A stretch of 31,002 nt of DNA, taken from IMG/VR virus record IMGVR_UViG_3300011115_000670, positions 1-31,002 of that record. One strand, written 5' to 3'. Every line of letters starts with the position of its first letter. The stretch's first letter is position 1. Below are positions 12,245-25,290 of the stretch, piece by piece. The stretch is from a virus. Below the pieces are notes generated by a model. The model did no database searches and was not told the origin of the DNA. It saw nothing but the letters and a program-made list of their open reading frames with translations. Made by a program: the position numbers and the translations under genes.

Positions 12245-12946
12245 TCAACGTAGCCCGGCGTGAGCGATGTCTATTGCCGAGATCTCGGGCGGCCGCATCT
12301 CGCCAGTCTTGCGCAGCGTGGAGAACTCGACCCGCAGATTATCGCGCACGATGCAGTACGCTTGACGCAGCGAGCCTTTGACCAGGCTTTCCGGGTGTAT
12401 CGGACAGCCGGCCTCGCGCAGTTGCTCGAGCTTGCTAAAGGTCTGGAAGTACTCGGCCGCGGCCAGTCCGCCCATGATGGCGAAGCGGTCATTGATGCCA
12501 CCGAACCGGCCCCACCAGGGTGTTAGCGCCTCGTTAATGATCGGCGTGTAGGTCTGGTCGAATGAGTGGAAGAACAGATCCGGCCGCACGCGCACGAACA
12601 GATCAGCATCGCCCACCGGATGATCGCTGTAGAGTTTCCAGCCCTGCTCTAGTTGCCAGAGTTGCCGCAAGACAGCCTGCACCGGCACGCTGCGCGCATA
12701 CGGCTCGAAGCGGACCGGCTCCGCCGGCTCGGCTAGCTCGGGCTGGCTCGGCTCTACCTTGCTAATCAGGGTTTTCGGCCGGAACAGCTGCTGCGTGATT
12801 TTCCAGTCGTCGGCGTCTTCATCCTGCACCGTAGAAATGTAGAAGTGCAGAGGTTTCGGCAGATGCCTGGCGACATGCCAGTTGAACGTGTGCGCGCAGG
12901 TTTTCCATGTGCGCATGTGGCCGGCGATGATGATAACGGATCCCAT
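12245..12946 (-). CDS. Glycosyltransferase-like protein
   Basis: 233 aa, ATG at 12946. It starts with a strand and loop IIIAGHMRTWKTCAHTF, then strand LHFYISTVQDEDADDW, a segment DADLFVRVRPDLFFHSF (about 113-129) and NDRFAIMGGLAAAEYF (about 151-166). This order (GHMRT, RVRPDLFF, NDRFA) is one I recognise from glycosyltransferase-like proteins of phages and large viruses; the Asp residues of RVRPD probably take the role of the nucleotide-sugar site. It forms an apparent set with the methyltransferase and radical SAM genes upstream, 3 bp away from the former. Substrate unknown. Confidence 0.55.
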   Translation of the reverse strand: MGSVIIIAGHMRTWKTCAHTFNWHVARHLPKPLHFYISTVQDEDADDWKITQQLFRPKTLISKVEPSQPELAEPAEPVRFEPYARSVPVQAVLRQLWQLEQGWKLYSDHPVGDADLFVRVRPDLFFHSFDQTYTPIINEALTPWWGRFGGINDRFAIMGGLAAAEYFQTFSKLEQLREAGCPIHPESLVKGSLRQAYCIVRDNLRVEFSTLRKTGEMRPPEISAIDIAHAGLR

Positions 12947-12949
12947 AAA

Positions 12950-13486
12950 TTAGGAAGCGCGACTTAGCACGAGCAGACCCCACTGCGAATGATAATACTG
13001 GAGCACGCACCATTCGGGATTATCTGCGAGAAATTCGAAGATGGCCTTAACGATGCCTTCGCCGCTTTCTCCGTCCTGGGCGAACTTGTACGCATCATGC
13101 AGCGCGATATATCTGCGCACCATTGGAGCATGCTTTAGCTCGGCCTCGACCTGGGCGGCATTGTGCAGCGTGTCGATAAACAGCAGGTCCGTCGGCTCGA
13201 TCAGATCCAGCTTCGCCGTGTCGGCGCGGTGCCACTGCCATTTGACAGTCGCACTAGGTGGGAATTCAAATTGCGGATCATCGCGGTCATAGGATGTGAG
13301 CTCGCCGCCGCCGCCGGCTTCGAGTCCTGCTGCAATGGCAATCGTGCTCTGGCCCGTGCGGATCCCAAATTCCGTAGCCGTGCGGCAGCTTGCGGCCAGC
13401 TGCTTTAGCTGGTGCATGTGCGGCAGCATGTCCTTGTGCCCGTGGAATGCGGCGCGCTCCTCGAAGAGAGTCTGAAGCGGCGTCAT
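12950..13486 (-). CDS. Class I SAM-dependent methyltransferase
   Basis: 178 aa, ATG at 13486 overlapping the radical SAM stop (ATGA). A Rossmann motif I is seen at ATEFGIRTGQSTIAIA (about 37-52), motif II-like LTSYDRDD (63-70) and the acidic motif DLLFIDTLHNAAQVEAEL, followed by RRYIALHDAY. The pattern FIDTLH...AEL....RYIALHD matches Methyltransf_24 / cephalosporin-hydroxylase-like small methyltransferases. It would methylate a small molecule or sugar in the cytoplasm; the substrate cannot be told. Sits in the enzyme island between terminase and portal. Confidence 0.7.
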   Translation of the reverse strand: MTPLQTLFEERAAFHGHKDMLPHMHQLKQLAASCRTATEFGIRTGQSTIAIAAGLEAGGGGELTSYDRDDPQFEFPPSATVKWQWHRADTAKLDLIEPTDLLFIDTLHNAAQVEAELKHAPMVRRYIALHDAYKFAQDGESGEGIVKAIFEFLADNPEWCVLQYYHSQWGLLVLSRAS

Positions 13487-14826
13487 AACTTCATCTCTCG
13501 GAGCTTCGCCGCACCGTCTGGGTTCGCCACATAGGCTTCGTCGATTTTAGCGGCAGCGTATTTTTCAAGTGAGCCAGTTACCTTGAGGGTGTGCAGCGGT
13601 GTTCCTTCAATCTCAGCGGTTCCGCTCAGTTGATGCGTGTCTAATCCGCCGGTGTCGTAAAGGTCTTTTATGTAGGCGATTGTTTCCTGCTGCTGCTCCT
13701 TGGTTTCTCCAGGAAGTCCGACGGTAAAGGTACCGTGAACGGTCATCCCTAGCTTTTTCAGCATGCGCGCCGTGTCGGCTGCCTTCGCTAGATTCAGCCG
13801 CTTATTGATGATCTTATCAATTACGGTCTGCGATCCACTCTCGAAGCCGAGCTTAACGCCGCGGCAGCCGCATTCAATCATGAGCTTCCAGGTCTCTTCC
13901 TTGATCGTGTCGGCTCGGCACATTGCGAACCAAGGCAGGCGGAACTCTTCCATTACCCGGGAGATCAGCCGCGTGTGCTTCTCGGTTAGATTAAACGTGT
14001 CGTCGTCCAGATAGATGCTCTTGTAGCGCACGCCCTTCGTCCAGGCATCGTCGATCTGCGTTTTGATCGCTCCGCGGACCCACTCGGGCGAATGGCAGCG
14101 CACCGTGCGCGCTCTGGTGCCATCTGGATCGTTGCCAGTCATTACCGCCGGCCAGACGCAGAAAATGCACTTGTAAGGACAGCCGCGGCTCGTGATCAGC
14201 TGCAGCTGCGGCGCCTCCTGGCCTTTCGGGCATGCGTCCCAGTAATTACCGACTGCGACCTCATCGTGCAGCGGGTACGGTAGGCTGTCCATCTCCTGCA
14301 CTGTCAGCAGATCGTGCGCGATCACGCCACGCTGGCCGCGGATCACGCGCAGCACTTGCTTGTCGTATTCGCCCTGGACGATCGCCGCGATGTTACGGTG
14401 CCGGCCTAGGATCTCGTCGGCCTTGGTAATGTCGAGCGGCCCGCAAAGGATGATCTGCGCCTTCGTCTTCGAGGCGAACCAGTCGATCACTTTCTCGTCA
14501 TGCACCCAGGCTGCGGTCGCTGTCTCGAGCACGACCCAATCAGGCGGATCGGCAAGAACTGCGTCAAAAAACTGCTGGTAGGATTCGCCCCGGGCGATCG
14601 AGTCTCGGATCTCCACTGTCGCATCTGGCAGTGTCGCCCGGGTGCGGGCGGCGGCCGAAGCTAGGAAGAACGGAAACGGCAGATAGCCTCCGTGTCGGAA
14701 TTCGCCCGGCGCGTGCACCGAGTAGCGGGTGAACGGCCAGCGAGAGCCGGCGCGCACGCCGATCAGCAGCTGCTGCGTCTTCAAATCCACATCCCACCAG
14801 GGAGGGTTAGAGAATAGAACTTTCAT
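13483..14826 (-). CDS. Radical SAM enzyme with N-terminal B12-binding-like domain
   Basis: 447 aa, ATG at 14826. Residues about 1-165 form a Rossmann-like domain (MKVLFSNPPWWDVD, then DWVVLETATAAW) as in B12-binding radical SAM proteins, though no DxHxxG motif is present. The [4Fe-4S] motif is CPYKCIFC (Cys216, Cys220, Cys223). Further hallmarks are IYLDDDTFNL (271-280), KLGFESGS (325-332) and GTFTVGLPGET (365-375). Such enzymes carry out methylations and other radical chemistry. Its place between terminase and portal, coupled to a methyltransferase, is unusual and suggests a joint modification job, which is inference. Confidence 0.85.
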   Translation of the reverse strand: MKVLFSNPPWWDVDLKTQQLLIGVRAGSRWPFTRYSVHAPGEFRHGGYLPFPFFLASAAARTRATLPDATVEIRDSIARGESYQQFFDAVLADPPDWVVLETATAAWVHDEKVIDWFASKTKAQIILCGPLDITKADEILGRHRNIAAIVQGEYDKQVLRVIRGQRGVIAHDLLTVQEMDSLPYPLHDEVAVGNYWDACPKGQEAPQLQLITSRGCPYKCIFCVWPAVMTGNDPDGTRARTVRCHSPEWVRGAIKTQIDDAWTKGVRYKSIYLDDDTFNLTEKHTRLISRVMEEFRLPWFAMCRADTIKEETWKLMIECGCRGVKLGFESGSQTVIDKIINKRLNLAKAADTARMLKKLGMTVHGTFTVGLPGETKEQQQETIAYIKDLYDTGGLDTHQLSGTAEIEGTPLHTLKVTGSLEKYAAAKIDEAYVANPDGAAKLREMKL

Positions 14827-21215: not shown

Positions 21216-21400
21216 CGGCCAGCCTCCGCGAGCTGCGCCTTGAGCTCGGCGATGTGGCGGTCAGCGACCGACGCGAGCCGCACCAGTTGGGCATTCGCTC
21301 TAGTCAGCCGGTCGTTCGCGATTCGCAGATCCAGATTCTCCTGCTTAAGCCGGTCGATCTCGGCCTGCAGGTCGTCGATCATGATGTGATGCGTTGGCAT
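21212..21400 (-). CDS. Small coiled-coil protein
   Basis: 62 aa, ATG at 21400, overlapping the upstream gene by 22 bp. It is one continuous amphipathic helix with heptads (IDDLQAEIDRLKQENLDLRI...), expected to dimerise. No other domain. Similar short leucine-zipper-like proteins are common in phage early regions, with unknown roles. Confidence 0.7.
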   Translation of the reverse strand: MPTHHIMIDDLQAEIDRLKQENLDLRIANDRLTRANAQLVRLASVADRHIAELKAQLAEAGR

Positions 21401-21585
21401 AGTTCGTTTATTTGTGAGCGGATTTCCTCCGCTAGTTGGTCTCGGGTGATTTCGCTGCCGTACTTAACGATACGGCGGAGCTCCTGGTCGATGTCGTCGA
21501 GCAACGCCCAGGCGTCAGCAGCGTGCACTGCGCGGATATGTTCGTCGCGTTCCTCGGGTAGCTGGAATTCGAGCGTGGCTTTCAT
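21379..21585 (-). CDS. Small acidic protein, unknown
   Basis: 68 aa, ATG at 21585 overlapping the preceding stop (ATGA). It begins MKATLEFQLPEERDEHIRAV, a phrase I recognise from phage early-region proteins with a short beta strand then helix, and continues with AWALLDDIDQELRRIVKYG. Function not known. Part of the coupled chain of small genes. Confidence 0.7.
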   Translation of the reverse strand: MKATLEFQLPEERDEHIRAVHAADAWALLDDIDQELRRIVKYGSEITRDQLAEEIRSQINELCQRITS

Positions 21586-21800
21586 GTGTTGCCGGCTGCC
21601 TTTCTCGCCTCGCGCAGCTGCTCAGGCGTGCAGAGCTCCTCGAGTGCTGCGACGTAGTTTTCCCAGCGTTGGATGTCTTCTTTCAGTTCTTTCACGCGCC
21701 GACGCGAGCCGTCGCAACTGTAGCACCAGCATTGCGCGACACCGTTAGCATCGTAAAAGCGCCCGCAATAGTTTTGGACATGGCACTTCTCGTCGATCAC
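21582..21800 (-). CDS. Small cysteine-rich protein (paralogue B)
   Basis: 72 aa. The GTG at 21800 is chosen because it follows AAAGGAGG by seven bases in the repeated junction sequence; the frame upstream of it is only shadow. Contains Cys pairs (CHVQNYC, then CWCYSC) that could bind zinc, and a helix ending WENYVAALEELCTPEQLREARKAA. The same C-terminal pattern occurs in the gene at 22721-23032, so these are paralogues from duplication. Function unknown. Confidence 0.75.
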   Translation of the reverse strand: MIDEKCHVQNYCGRFYDANGVAQCWCYSCDGSRRRVKELKEDIQRWENYVAALEELCTPEQLREARKAAGNT

Positions 21801-21815
21801 GGCTGCGCCTCCTTT
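21797..21815 (-). repeat. Coupling-junction repeat, copy 4
   Basis: AAAGGAGGCGCAGCCGTGA on the minus strand. It encodes the last residues KEAQP and the stop of one gene while giving the next gene its ribosome site (AAAGGAGG) and GTG start. Identical to copies at 22201, 22473 and 22721. Confidence 0.9.
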
Positions 21816-22204
21816 CGGGCTGCGTCGTGTAGCTTTGCCACTTCGTCCGCAGCCTTGGCGCACCCGTTTAGCCGCAACTCGGTCTGTGCAATGTTGAGCG
21901 CGTGGTTCAGCTCGGCGTTCTCGCGCTCTAGCTCTTGAATGGTCTCCAGAGATAGCGCCAGAGCGAGACGGTCAGCGTTTACATTCGGCTCTTTTGGCTC
22001 TTTGCGTTTCCAGAGCCCATGTTCGCGGTCTACGCAAATGTACTCATCGGTTTGTTTATTGTTGTTACTGACTAGAGAATTTAGCCGGTTACGCATAATT
22101 TCATTTTCTGTTTTAAGTTTGCCTAGCTCGGTCTGCATCCACTCGCACTCTTTGATGTACCAATCTAGGTCACGGTCATTTGGTTTTGTAGTTGGTAGAT
22201 TCAC
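21797..22204 (-). CDS. Coiled-coil early protein
   Basis: 135 aa, GTG at 22204 placed by the junction repeat. Two helical coiled-coil parts (ECEWMQTELGKLKTENEIM..., then LETIQELERENAELNHALN) flank a more A+T-rich centre with SLVSNNNKQTDEYICVDREH. The end HDAARKEAQP matches that of the neighbouring gene (IDAARKEAQP). The extension upstream of 22204 is shadow. No known function. Confidence 0.7.
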   Translation of the reverse strand: MNLPTTKPNDRDLDWYIKECEWMQTELGKLKTENEIMRNRLNSLVSNNNKQTDEYICVDREHGLWKRKEPKEPNVNADRLALALSLETIQELERENAELNHALNIAQTELRLNGCAKAADEVAKLHDAARKEAQP

Positions 22205-22219
22205 GGCTGCGCCTCCTTT
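22201..22219 (-). repeat. Coupling-junction repeat, copy 3
   Basis: Exact 19-bp copy of the stop/ribosome-site/start junction. Similarity to copy 4 extends further upstream, both encoding DAARKEAQP, about 30 bp in all with few changes. Confidence 0.9.
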
Positions 22220-22476
22220 CGTGCGGCGTCGATGGCGGCGCGGAGTGTGCGATTTGATTTCCACGTCACCACTATTGGACCCAGCCCATCTATTTTTTCT
22301 GGAGACATCCATGTCCACGGAATTGCGTTATGATCCAACCAATCCAGCCGCTCCTTGTCTGCACGTAGCGCGGCGTTCTCCTGCTTCAGTTTTTGGAGTT
22401 GGTCGGCTGCCTTTTCCAGCTCTGGCGGCCAGCCCAATTCTTTAGCCATCTGACGTAGTTTTGTAGGGCTGCTCAC
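22201..22476 (-). CDS. Small early protein of RLDWL/AAIDAA type
   Basis: 91 aa, GTG at 22476 placed by the junction repeat. A helical first half (MAKELGWPPELEKAADQLQKLKQENAALRADKERLDWLDH) is followed by a short strand-rich part (WTWMSPEKIDGLGPIVVTWK) and the end NRTLRAAIDAARK. This ERLDWL...LRAAIDAA arrangement is widespread among small phage early proteins, without known function. Confidence 0.75.
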   Translation of the reverse strand: MSSPTKLRQMAKELGWPPELEKAADQLQKLKQENAALRADKERLDWLDHNAIPWTWMSPEKIDGLGPIVVTWKSNRTLRAAIDAARKEAQP

Positions 22477-22491
22477 GGCTGCGCCTCCTTT
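22473..22491 (-). repeat. Coupling-junction repeat, copy 2
   Basis: Exact 19-bp copy. The bases after the GTG (GTGAGCA) are also shared with copy 1, so both downstream genes begin Met-Ser. Confidence 0.9.
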
Positions 22492-22724
22492 TGCTTCGCC
22501 CGCTCGGCGACTACCGTGGCACGTTCCGATTCGGCGATGCAGTAGAGCTGGAGGAACTCGTCCACCGCCGCCACGTCGCCCGCGTAGTACCGGCGTCCCA
22601 TCTCCTCAAGGTGCCGTGCCATTTCTCGGCGCATGAACGTGAATCCTGTCCCTTGTGCCTGCCGTAGATACCTAAAACAATTCACGCGCATCCCGCGATG
22701 GTCCGGTGCAAGAATTGTGCTCAC
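22473..22724 (-). CDS. Small early protein, unknown
   Basis: 83 aa, GTG at 22724 placed by the junction repeat. Contains VNCFRYLRQAQGTGFTFM and a helical region with REMARHLEEMGRRYYAGD, then an acidic helix and the KQKEAQP end. No motif recognised. Coupled to both neighbours. Confidence 0.7.
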   Translation of the reverse strand: MSTILAPDHRGMRVNCFRYLRQAQGTGFTFMRREMARHLEEMGRRYYAGDVAAVDEFLQLYCIAESERATVVAERAKQKEAQP

Positions 22725-22739
22725 GGCTGCGCCTCCTTT
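22721..22739 (-). repeat. Coupling-junction repeat, copy 1
   Basis: First of four exact copies, ending the cysteine-rich gene and starting the next one. Intervals between copies are 248, 272 and 404 bp. Confidence 0.9.
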
Positions 22740-23032
22740 CCTCGCTGTGTCATTTCGTTGATGTCACCGATATGATCGGCGCGACTTGTCTCCACCGATT
22801 TCCTCGCAGCACGCAGTTGCTCAGGTGTGCATTCGTCCTCGAGCGCGCCGACGTAGTTTTCGAACTGGACGAGGTTGGCGATCAACTCGGCAACTCGGTT
22901 GCGGCTCTCGGCTTCGTCTTGGCACCAGCATTTCGCTTTCCCCGGCCGCACGATGTGCAGCCCGCAGTCAGCGCCGAGCTTGCATCGCGACCATGAGTTT
23001 CCGCATCCATCGGAAATGTCATTCCCTTTCAC
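22721..23032 (-). CDS. Small cysteine-rich protein (paralogue A)
   Basis: 103 aa, GTG at 23032 in a GTGA overlap with the exonuclease stop; the upstream extension is shadow. Six Cys including CGNSWSRC, CKLGADC and CWC could form a zinc-binding knot. The helix FENYVGALEDECTPEQLRAARKS matches the gene at 21582-21800, and the two bracket the junction-repeat array. After this comes a separate tail (RADHIGDINEMTQRGKEAQP) that carries the first junction repeat, as if appended. Confidence 0.75.
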   Translation of the reverse strand: MKGNDISDGCGNSWSRCKLGADCGLHIVRPGKAKCWCQDEAESRNRVAELIANLVQFENYVGALEDECTPEQLRAARKSVETSRADHIGDINEMTQRGKEAQP

Positions 23033-23865
23033 TCCGCACCGCCTTTCACGTACCACGCCGGCACGCCGAGCTCGCGCACTACCGGGTCGATGTTGGGCCA
23101 GGTGTCGCTGTCTATGCACCGCTTGAGATCGCGCAGATCAGCCACGGTCTCATCTTGGCCGAGTGCCACCGCATCGTCGGTGAGCTTAAACACGGCGACG
23201 CCGAACGGCTCGCATTTCTCGACCACAATAAAAACAAAGTCGAAGACCGGCTTAGACCAGAGTTCGCTGATCAGCGGAAGATAAAATCCGGCCTGGCGAT
23301 GATAACCCCAGCGAAACACGGCGCGCTCGAAGTTGCTGAACGTCTCGTCGTCCAGGCTCTCGACCGTCTTGAGATCCGCGACATAAGGCCGGCCATCGGT
23401 AATCTCGCAGCCGTCTGGATTAAACCAGTCGGTGCGGCACTGCAGCGTCAGACTGCCGCCAGTCCGCCAGGTCGCCTCGGGCACGCCCCGGGCCAGCAGC
23501 TGCTCGGCCAAGGGATTTTGGCGTACAGCGTCTGTCAGCTTTAGCACCGTCGCGGCTTCGTCTTGGTCGATGATGATCTTTCCGGCGTGGAGATCCTCGA
23601 ACTGCGCCCACTTCTCCTTGCCCTCCTTCGTGCGCCGGTCGATTCCCTCGGGCTTAACCGCGTATCGCTTACCCCACTCGGCCGGCTCGAGCACCGAGCA
23701 GTGCGCCGCGGATCCGACGCGAAAGGCCGTGCTGGGCTCCTCCGCTTCGATCGTCTTGGCGATGTATCGCTTGTGGTATAGTGCCGGCCGCCGGCGGAAA
23801 CACTCGAGCTTTGAGTGGGAGATCGCCGGGTTAGCGTGGTACTCGGCCGATGATTCCTGGATCAT
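23029..23865 (-). CDS. PD-(D/E)XK exonuclease (RecE/DUF3799-like)
   Basis: 278 aa, ATG at 23865, after AGGAGG. N-terminal HANPAISHSKLECFRRRPALYH and GSAAHCSVLEP (51-61) are typical of this nuclease family. The catalytic set appears as Glu130 (VPEATW), Asp146 (CRTDWFNPD), Asp164-Leu-Lys166 in VADLKTVES, and the QAGFY motif (191-195). It should degrade one strand of a duplex end to give ssDNA for the RecT-like annealing protein encoded upstream. The two are separated by three small genes, not adjacent as in RecET. Confidence 0.85.
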   Translation of the reverse strand: MIQESSAEYHANPAISHSKLECFRRRPALYHKRYIAKTIEAEEPSTAFRVGSAAHCSVLEPAEWGKRYAVKPEGIDRRTKEGKEKWAQFEDLHAGKIIIDQDEAATVLKLTDAVRQNPLAEQLLARGVPEATWRTGGSLTLQCRTDWFNPDGCEITDGRPYVADLKTVESLDDETFSNFERAVFRWGYHRQAGFYLPLISELWSKPVFDFVFIVVEKCEPFGVAVFKLTDDAVALGQDETVADLRDLKRCIDSDTWPNIDPVVRELGVPAWYVKGGAE

Positions 23866-24122
23866 GTGGCTGCCTCCTGCTTAATGTTCGAATGCTTCCA
23901 GGCTGTTCGCCATGTGACCTTGCAGGCCCGGGCTATGTCCCCGATGGTCATCCCCTCGCGCCGCATCTGTTTCATCTGCGCACGAAGCGCTGCGCTAGTT
24001 GGCGGCCGATACGGCCCCGGCTTCCAGTCGCAGACGCGCTTGGGCTTCTCGGGTTCCTCCGCTTTCAAGTAAATCGGCGCATGCTTTCGGATCAGCGCCT
24101 CGATCGCGTCGAAGTCCATCAT
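23862..24122 (-). CDS. Small helix-turn-helix protein (KHAP-type B)
   Basis: 86 aa, ATG at 24122 (ATGA overlap with the upstream stop); a second ATG follows at 24119. FDAIEALIRKHAPIYLKAEE near the start, a Pro-rich linker, then an HTH in MRREGMTIGDIARACKVTWRTAWKHS (about 54-79). Probably binds DNA. Related in design to the gene at 20625-20879. Its last codons again carry an AGGAGG ribosome site for the exonuclease gene. Confidence 0.7.
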   Translation of the reverse strand: MMDFDAIEALIRKHAPIYLKAEEPEKPKRVCDWKPGPYRPPTSAALRAQMKQMRREGMTIGDIARACKVTWRTAWKHSNIKQEAAT

Positions 24123-24343
24123 GGCGCCTCCTCTCGCAGATCGAGCTCGTGTAGCTTGTACGCGATCTCGGACAGAATGAGCTCGGCTGCGCTAATCGTG
24201 CGGTAGCCTTCCCAGTAGCGGCGTACCGCGATCTGATCTGCGCCCTCTGAAATGCCAGTCAGCACTTGCTGCAGCTGCTGCATGATCACGGCGCGCTCGG
24301 AGATGTCCAAGGCATCGGCGATGCTGTTTTTCTTGGCGACCAT
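24119..24343 (-). CDS. Small helical early protein
   Basis: 74 aa, ATG at 24343, adjacent to the TAA at 24344. Entirely helical, with SIADALDISERAVIMQQLQQVL and LILSEIAYKLHELDLREEAP. No motif recognised. The end REEAP with GAGGAGGCGCC before the next ATG looks like a diverged form of the KEAQP junction seen downstream. Confidence 0.65.
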   Translation of the reverse strand: MVAKKNSIADALDISERAVIMQQLQQVLTGISEGADQIAVRRYWEGYRTISAAELILSEIAYKLHELDLREEAP

Positions 24344-24634
24344 TTATGAGCCCTCCTGCAGCGGCAGCTTCGTCTGCTCAAAGTCCACGATGTCATCGCT
24401 CTCGTCCTTGAACTTCGCGGACCAGGTGAGCCGCACGGCGACCTTAGTGCTCGGCGCCATCGCGTCCCACTCGATCAGCGCGTTCACCTTGCATGTCGGC
24501 TCGACCGCGTCGGTGTCGTCCTGGAAGGAGTCCGTTGCGGCCTTGAGAATCTGCGGGTAGCGTGTCTCGAGCAGGGAGCGGAACTGCTCAACGATCGAGG
24601 ACAGCACGCGCTCGCGGCGTTCGTCGGCGCTCAT
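24344..24634 (-). CDS. Small early protein between SSAP and exonuclease
   Basis: 96 aa, ATG at 24634 overlapping the RecT-like stop (ATGA). A helix (ERRERVLSSIVEQFRSLLE) leads into beta strands (CKVNALIEWDAMAPSTKVAVRLTWSAKFK) and an acidic end. I recognise the general shape of small phage proteins that accompany recombination genes, but no function is known. Confidence 0.65.
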   Translation of the reverse strand: MSADERRERVLSSIVEQFRSLLETRYPQILKAATDSFQDDTDAVEPTCKVNALIEWDAMAPSTKVAVRLTWSAKFKDESDDIVDFEQTKLPLQEGS

Positions 24635-25290
24635 GATGCACCTCCGATTTGGCTAGAGAGTCCGCCAGCCACCTTGGCCTCGAGCGGCGTCACATTGATC
24701 GGCTCGGCCGGAATGTCGCGGACCTCCTCGACGGTGCGCAAACCCTTCAGCACATCGCCGAAAAGATCGCGCAAGACGTAACCCCGGGCGCGGAAGCGGA
24801 GCATGCGTTTCGGGTAGTCAGTCCACGGGCCCGACTTTCCCCAGAGCTTCGCCCTCTTTGCGTCGCCAGTCGTAAACGTTTCAATCGCCGTCTGGTCGCC
24901 TTCGCGGACTGCAGTCACCTTGTAGCCGTGCCCATCGGTCCCAGGCTCGCCGATCTCCTCCTCCTTGTAAGAGACCAGCAGCCCGGATCCGCGGACGAGC
25001 GCCAGCGCCGCGTCGCCATAGATCGCCGGCCTGCCATTGATGACCGCAGTATTCTGCAGCGCAGCCATCGGCGAGAGCCCGATCTCGGCGCCCAGCTGAA
25101 TCGCCACCAGGACGGCCTCGGGCTTTTCCATCCCCCTCGGAGCGAATCCTGACGCGCAGATCGCGTTAGCGAATCGGTAAGCGTCCTCGAGGCTCGCCAG
25201 CTTAACGCCCGAATCCCCGAAGGTGATAGGCGATTTATTCGCAGTGGTCGCCTTGACCACCGCCGCGTCGTTTTCGTGTGTGTTGCTCAT
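24631..25290 (-). CDS. RecT-like single-strand annealing protein
   Basis: 219 aa from ATG 25290 (a TTG two codons earlier is less likely). Hallmarks I recognise from RecT-like phage recombinases: YRFANAICASGFAPRGMEKP, VLVAIQLGAEIGLSPMAALQ, NTAVINGRPAIYGDAALALV, then DAKRAKLWGKSGPWTDYPKR and MLRFRARGYVLRDLFGDVLKG. These proteins anneal complementary ssDNA in phage recombination. It works with the exonuclease at 23029-23865 and the RusA resolvase. No known active site residues are needed for annealing. Confidence 0.8.
   Translation of the reverse strand: MSNTHENDAAVVKATTANKSPITFGDSGVKLASLEDAYRFANAICASGFAPRGMEKPEAVLVAIQLGAEIGLSPMAALQNTAVINGRPAIYGDAALALVRGSGLLVSYKEEEIGEPGTDGHGYKVTAVREGDQTAIETFTTGDAKRAKLWGKSGPWTDYPKRMLRFRARGYVLRDLFGDVLKGLRTVEEVRDIPAEPINVTPLEAKVAGGLSSQIGGAS

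Follow-up and report, generated by a model that had tools for sequence, protein, structure and literature searches.

A repeated 19-bp stop/start junction between small phage genes as a candidate homology block for cassette exchange

Results

Organization of the small-gene array

The window (the whole 31,002-nt stretch analysed here) is a viral record. Its terminase and portal match those of Verrucomicrobia phage P8625 (22 % and 31 % identity, respectively) and the portal also matches an Akkermansia phage, among others, making a Verrucomicrobiota host likely. A BLASTn match of the region to 185 Salinibacter phages is confined to a single 54-base stretch (query positions 250–303), which lies inside recT and away from the junctions described below.

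Five small genes, translated from the minus strand in the order A, B, C, D, E, occupy a slot between a conserved exonuclease gene and a small conserved gene whose product begins KATLEF (the KATLEF gene), with a gene for a RecT-like single-strand annealing protein further upstream (Table 1). The GC3 of the cassette genes (0.57–0.70) is below that of the exonuclease, RecT and portal genes (0.76–0.77). Genes A and E are paralogous (48 % identity over 64 aa, E value 9e-18). The products of C and D are both coiled-coil-like, their common part being essentially the tail alone, and B, C and D display no convincing kinship to A/E or to one another beyond this tail. The suggestion from the sequence-only reading that the joined genes are otherwise different therefore holds for B, C and D and fails for A and E. 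Elsewhere in the window, a putative radical SAM-like ORF and two adjoining ORFs with a transferase-like look form an unusual cargo among the structural genes.

Table 1. Positions of the junctions, cassette genes and other features of the window
Feature	Position	Strand	Remarks
RecT-like single-strand annealing protein	24631..25287	-	Upstream of array; PHROG 561, E=1.1e-39
Non-canonical coupled junction	24119..24140	-	REEAP, stop/ATG
Non-canonical coupled junction	23862..23885	-	QEAAT, stop/ATG
PDDEXK exonuclease (DUF3799), conserved	23029..23865	-	Left border of slot; last codons vary among relatives (VKGGAE / RKEAQP / RKEAI)
Cassette gene A, 103 aa, Cys-rich	22721..23032	-	CGNSWSRCK..CGLH..KCWC; paralogue of E; PHROG: no match
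Junction copy 1, gene A to gene B	22721..22739	-	AAAGGAGGCGCAGCCGTGA; KEAQP, stop/GTG frame
Cassette gene B, 83 aa	22473..22724	-	Family also found in many further phages that lack this junction
Junction copy 2, gene B to gene C	22473..22491	-	Exact 19-mer
Cassette gene C, 91 aa	22201..22476	-	Carries LKQENAALRADKERLDWL and AAIDAARKEAQP blocks
Junction copy 3, gene C to gene D	22201..22219	-	Exact 19-mer; homology to L148 falls from 95 % (upstream) to 21 % (downstream)
Cassette gene D, 135 aa, coiled-coil-like	21797..22204	-	Sole other copy found: near-identical contig of L008
Junction copy 4, gene D to gene E	21797..21815	-	Exact 19-mer
Cassette gene E, 72 aa, Cys-rich	21582..21800	-	C-terminal AAGNT, without junction
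KATLEF gene, conserved	21379..21585	-	Right border of slot; relative in L144 (same contig as L037) opens at GTG of 19-mer
447-aa ORF with CPYKCIFC	13483..14826	-	Radical SAM-like (by eye)
ORF, transferase-like look	12950..13486		Adjoins 447-aa ORF
ORF, transferase-like look	12245..12946		Adjoins 447-aa ORF

Anatomy of the junction

A sequence scan located four exact copies of the 19-mer, all on the minus strand; allowing up to three mismatches revealed no fifth site in the window, where dinucleotide shuffles predict 0.02. In the direction of translation the block reads AAAGGAGGCGCAGCC and comprises a Shine–Dalgarno (SD) sequence, AAAGGAGG, a 7-base spacer, CGCAGCC, and GTGA, in which GTG opens the next gene and TGA closes the previous one. 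At each of the four copies the preceding gene ends in KEAQP and the following gene opens with GTG. The four identical stop/ribosome-site/start junctions reported by the sequence-only reading are thus upheld by the scan, and their KEAQP ends and GTG starts by the translations. All four have the arrangement of a coupling overlap (AAAGGAGG-N7-GTGA), i.e. an RTGA stop/start on one strand with the SD in the upstream gene. The block itself lacks symmetry and is contained within coding sequence. Folding of the sequence around the four copies revealed no common structure and Rfam returned no match, on which grounds an RNA element was rejected. Two neighbouring junctions proposed to be diverged forms, with the tails QEAAT and REEAP, have the SD and the 4-base stop/start overlap in common with the block, but their spacers are not close copies of its spacer.

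Recurrence in other phages and in bacteria

The exact block is present in 33 IMG/VR stretches besides the window; one of them, L008, belongs to a near-identical phage that has these four copies as well. The block is flanked in all 33 by two open frames of one strand, in one constant register, with KEAQP upstream, GTG downstream and the same coupling overlap, allowing for an upstream frame of just 19 codons in L018 and a few downstream frames that are short or cut. Occurrence between unlike genes of other phage contigs, which the sequence-only reading had put forward as a check, was accordingly found in dozens of phages, and the repeat is not confined to this genome. When only CGAAAGGAGG-N7-GTGAGC was fixed and the spacer left free, CGCAGCC accounted for 17 of approximately 51 matches, as opposed to three for the runner-up, so the sharing extends beyond the SD. 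Codon coincidence is ruled out by this spacer control together with the constant frame.

In a bacterial genome collection, 45 matches to the G/A form were obtained (~10 GTG, ~35 ATG), almost all of them located at ordinary junctions between genes of unrelated bacteria, showing that the 19-mer can arise independently as a good coupling site. The proportions are reversed in viruses, with the GTG form in 33 stretches versus the ATG form in 13; the GTG form is thus relatively in excess there.

Conservation at the DNA level and junction dialects

All 93 distinct open frames ending in KEA(Q/K)P end in CCR-TGA and overlap an RTG start, including each of the 54 that were chosen by no search pattern (54/54). 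Since every tail (93/93) came with such an overlapping start, we ruled out a C-terminal peptide tag. AAG GAG is nearly invariant among these tails. Most spacers belong to one of two linked haplotypes, GCG-CAG (39, a class inflated by ascertainment bias in the search) and GCC-AAG (42), with mixed forms seen only five times and once. At unselected junctions, the non-SD spacer bases are more alike within contigs (0.571) than between them (0.468±0.019; 0/2000 permutations as high), a likeness to which kinship of sites inside a lineage can contribute.

Other contigs build longer arrays on a sister dialect, AAGGAGGCCAAGCC: L210 has seven junctions in a row and L177, L228 and L235 have comparable runs, while L222 repeats a third junction form, GCGCGAAGGAGGGGCAGCGATGA. 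The sister-dialect junctions AAGGAGGCCAAGCCGTGA and GAAGGAGGGGCAGCGATGA in these five contigs are present in more copies than the junction of the window. Considered together, the dialect arrays and the within-contig spacer likeness indicate that junction forms were homogenised, or passed down, separately in different phages.

Gene content and homology breakpoints

Where relatives of the exonuclease and KATLEF genes occur, the slot that they enclose holds one to seven different cassettes as called by a simple script: five in the window and in L135, one in L136, seven in L144 and two each in L145 and L055, with one unrelated gene in L140. The borders vary as well: the exonuclease ends in PAWYVKGGAE in the window, PAWYRKEAQP in L144 and PAWYRKEAI in L136, and the KATLEF gene is preceded by AAGNT(stop)ATGA in the window and by IDAARKEAQP(stop)GTGA in L144. 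Gains, losses and swaps between junctions had been anticipated, and relatives do differ in gene content; an unchanged gene order lacking the repeat was not found among them.

In contig pairs sharing one flanking gene, homology crosses the block and then ends at its edge (upstream/block/downstream: L022/L034, 0.97/1.00/0.21; L021/L034, 0.20/0.95/0.80; window/L148, 0.95/0.89/0.21), an end just outside the block being partly built in where both partners were chosen for carrying it. Common sequence is thereby present at the edges of the exchanged segments, as is the case in homology-directed phage mosaicism. Separately, a gene opening with VNVRLIALTTP (MNAKLIATTQP in L045), which we take to be probably ThyX, is preceded by differing genes in L021, L022, L034 and L045, the joints being block-type or related junctions.

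Across 131 loci, alignment ends are in excess both near block-type junctions (176 versus 45.8±6.5 expected) and near other SD-overlap junctions (519 versus 149.7±12.1 expected). An initial test with 55 loci detected no per-junction difference between the two classes (at least one end at 36/55 block and 117/179 other junctions); the difference emerges in the larger set as the fraction of nucleotide alignments that break at, rather than span, the junction. This fraction is 0.92 (0.89–0.95) for block-type and 0.62 (0.57–0.66) for other SD/overlap junctions, and 0.93 and 0.62, respectively, where both neighbouring genes are small, a comparison to be read in light of block junctions sitting in the variable region and of many loci having been retrieved via the block or the SDTPRTD start described below. 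At the protein level, the neighbour-swap fraction differs little (block, 0.94; other small-gene junctions, 0.91), which means that shuffling can proceed without the block. Small-gene shuffling is therefore general in these phages, with the block associated but not required. The earlier idea of the junction as a homology block for exchanging small genes is consequently sustained in part: the block is common to unlike genes, content varies and homology switches at its edges, whereas genes without it are swapped too, and a causal role of the block is one that we infer.

A second block within genes

Many cassettes open with SDTPRTD and contain the motif LERENAALR. The DNA encoding this motif is nearly invariant (first Ala GCC in 17/19, second Ala GCG in 16/19; pairwise identity 0.86), as opposed to identities of only 0.33 and 0.32 in the 30 bases on either side. 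One N-part is found paired with different C-parts and vice versa, and LERE(N/L) sites are enriched for alignment ends (80 versus 24.5±4.8). LERENAALR is thus a second shared block, in this case intragenic. The large set of small genes with the SDTPRTD start and an internal LERENAALR or LERELNAAN is spread over many IMG/VR loci (e.g. L177–L253), and gene C of the window carries a block related to this set. In addition, L015 and L028 are one 66-kb contig with a SDTPRTDAAVRD gene start near both ends, followed by differing C-parts, a layout that might reflect circularity or a duplication within the contig.

The SDTPRTD start is common, with at least 120 IMG/VR stretches carrying it, while one representative cassette protein had no match in cultured phages. 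In a search for host prophages, the start pattern was detected in 1/286 genomes of one class (around an Opitutaceae genome), with no cassette array at that site, and a terminase query against three genomes of this Opitutaceae-centred class returned no match.

Discussion

We propose that the 19-mer would act as a combined stop, SD and start that couples the translation of successive small genes, a role suggested by established knowledge of such overlaps. Since it closes one gene and opens the following one, genes bearing it could be joined in any pairing with frame and ribosome site kept, and it may therefore double as a portable homology block. When two phages recombine at it, whole small genes would be inserted, deleted or replaced in the slot behind the exonuclease, and the exchange may be carried out by an annealing protein of the phage, for instance RecT. 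This account, a coupling junction doubling as a homology block for cassette exchange, is the one we favour, if with modest confidence; in this reading the block itself would promote exchange. A link to this phage's own RecT and exonuclease is plausible; RecT (PHROG 561) was detected in only 13/37 junction-type contigs, many of which are fragments. Approximately 30 bp is quoted as the minimum for Red and RecA, and 19 bp falls short of this; RecET works on 5–13 bp, although only at about 1e-8 (PMC2327257). Rad52-like recombinases generate mosaics in temperate phages (PMC3945230), and the shared stretch reaches ~30 bp in some pairs (GACGCCGCACGAAAGGAGGCGCAGCCGTGA). Together, these considerations make a recombination mechanism plausible.

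The most serious competitor is selection alone, whereby the block is a particularly good coupling site, illegitimate recombination occurs anywhere but joints at gene ends alone survive, so that breaks fall at junctions, and the shared spacer reflects inheritance of the coupling site along with one partner gene. The SD and RTGA overlap core is indeed a known coupling architecture (PMC6728339), unrelated bacterial genes have reached the same 19-mer and ordinary junctions are break points as well. Nonetheless, the seven spacer bases should be unneeded for coupling and are still shared, they fall into two linked haplotypes (39 and 42 versus five and one, the first with ascertainment bias) with greater likeness within contigs, and block junctions have the higher nucleotide break fraction, and we consider selection alone unlikely, if still to be reckoned with.

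The remaining two explanations are much less probable. If the block bound a protein or RNA, or folded as RNA, to control the small-gene operon, as considered for the Start-Associated Sequences (SAS) of mycobacteriophages, its repetition in a single orientation, its linkage to starts and its lineage-specific, SAS-like dialects (PMC3203893) would be accounted for; however, the four copies have neither a common fold nor an Rfam match, and an asymmetric block within coding sequence fits poorly with such a site, which we regard as improbable. Still less credible is tandem duplication, with one gene and its junction copied repeatedly and only the junction kept as the genes diverged: the A/E paralogues (48 %) and the common tail and coiled-coil character of C and D are in its favour, but B comes from an unrelated phage-wide family and already spoke against this origin, D has no relative outside the near-identical contig, identical spacers are unexpected among genes diverged past recognition and relatives hold different genes rather than diverged copies.

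What is unusual about the block is that its non-SD bases are common to unlike genes and mark switches in gene content. We know of no ordinary coupled overlaps with a spacer sequence common to unlike genes. The SD with overlapping stop and start is the ordinary part, like coupled ATGA/GTGA overlaps with the SD in the upstream gene (PMC6728339). The closest known parallel is provided by the SAS of Cluster K mycobacteriophages, short asymmetric AGGAG-containing repeats just 5′ of the starts of unlike non-structural genes, mostly in a single orientation, lineage-specific and in some copies including the upstream stop (PMC3203893); start linkage, single orientation and unlike gene families are equally features of our block. 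SAS have their own consensus, GGGATAGGAGCCC, lie mostly before ATG and are accompanied by 17-bp inverted repeats in about half of cases (PMC3203893). The block does not match this consensus, AGGAG being the sole common part; it has GTG as the dominant start, no inverted repeat was seen and stop and start overlap in every copy. The SAS authors raised a possible target for homologous recombination (PMC3203893); in the present analysis, the block was examined for homology switches.

The PeSL of T4-type phages are likewise short elements repeated among small genes and proposed to mediate modular shuffling (Arbiol 2010 and Comeau 2014, as cited in PMC4503421). As summarised there, a PeSL consists of an early promoter and a stem-loop, whereas the block is a translation junction in coding sequence, where genes overlapping by 4 bases leave space for neither promoter nor terminator and no shared fold was found. 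Short conserved sequences also flank exchanged modules in lambdoid phages, a likeness by description alone, going by a mention in PMC2327257.

More broadly, it is possible, if doubtful, that several uncultured lineages keep arrays built on two interchangeable blocks (the junction and LERENAALR), with genes and gene halves recombined in frame by their own annealing recombinases. Whether phage mosaicism arises through short border homologies or through random joining followed by selection is debated (PMC3945230). The junction offers a natural case in which the border sequence is exactly known and different phage contigs have distinct dialects, and since the spacer can be changed with the ribosome site and overlap kept, the question becomes directly testable. 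If true, the proposed exchange at the junction would explain how a fast-changing pool of small genes is kept expressed in one operon.
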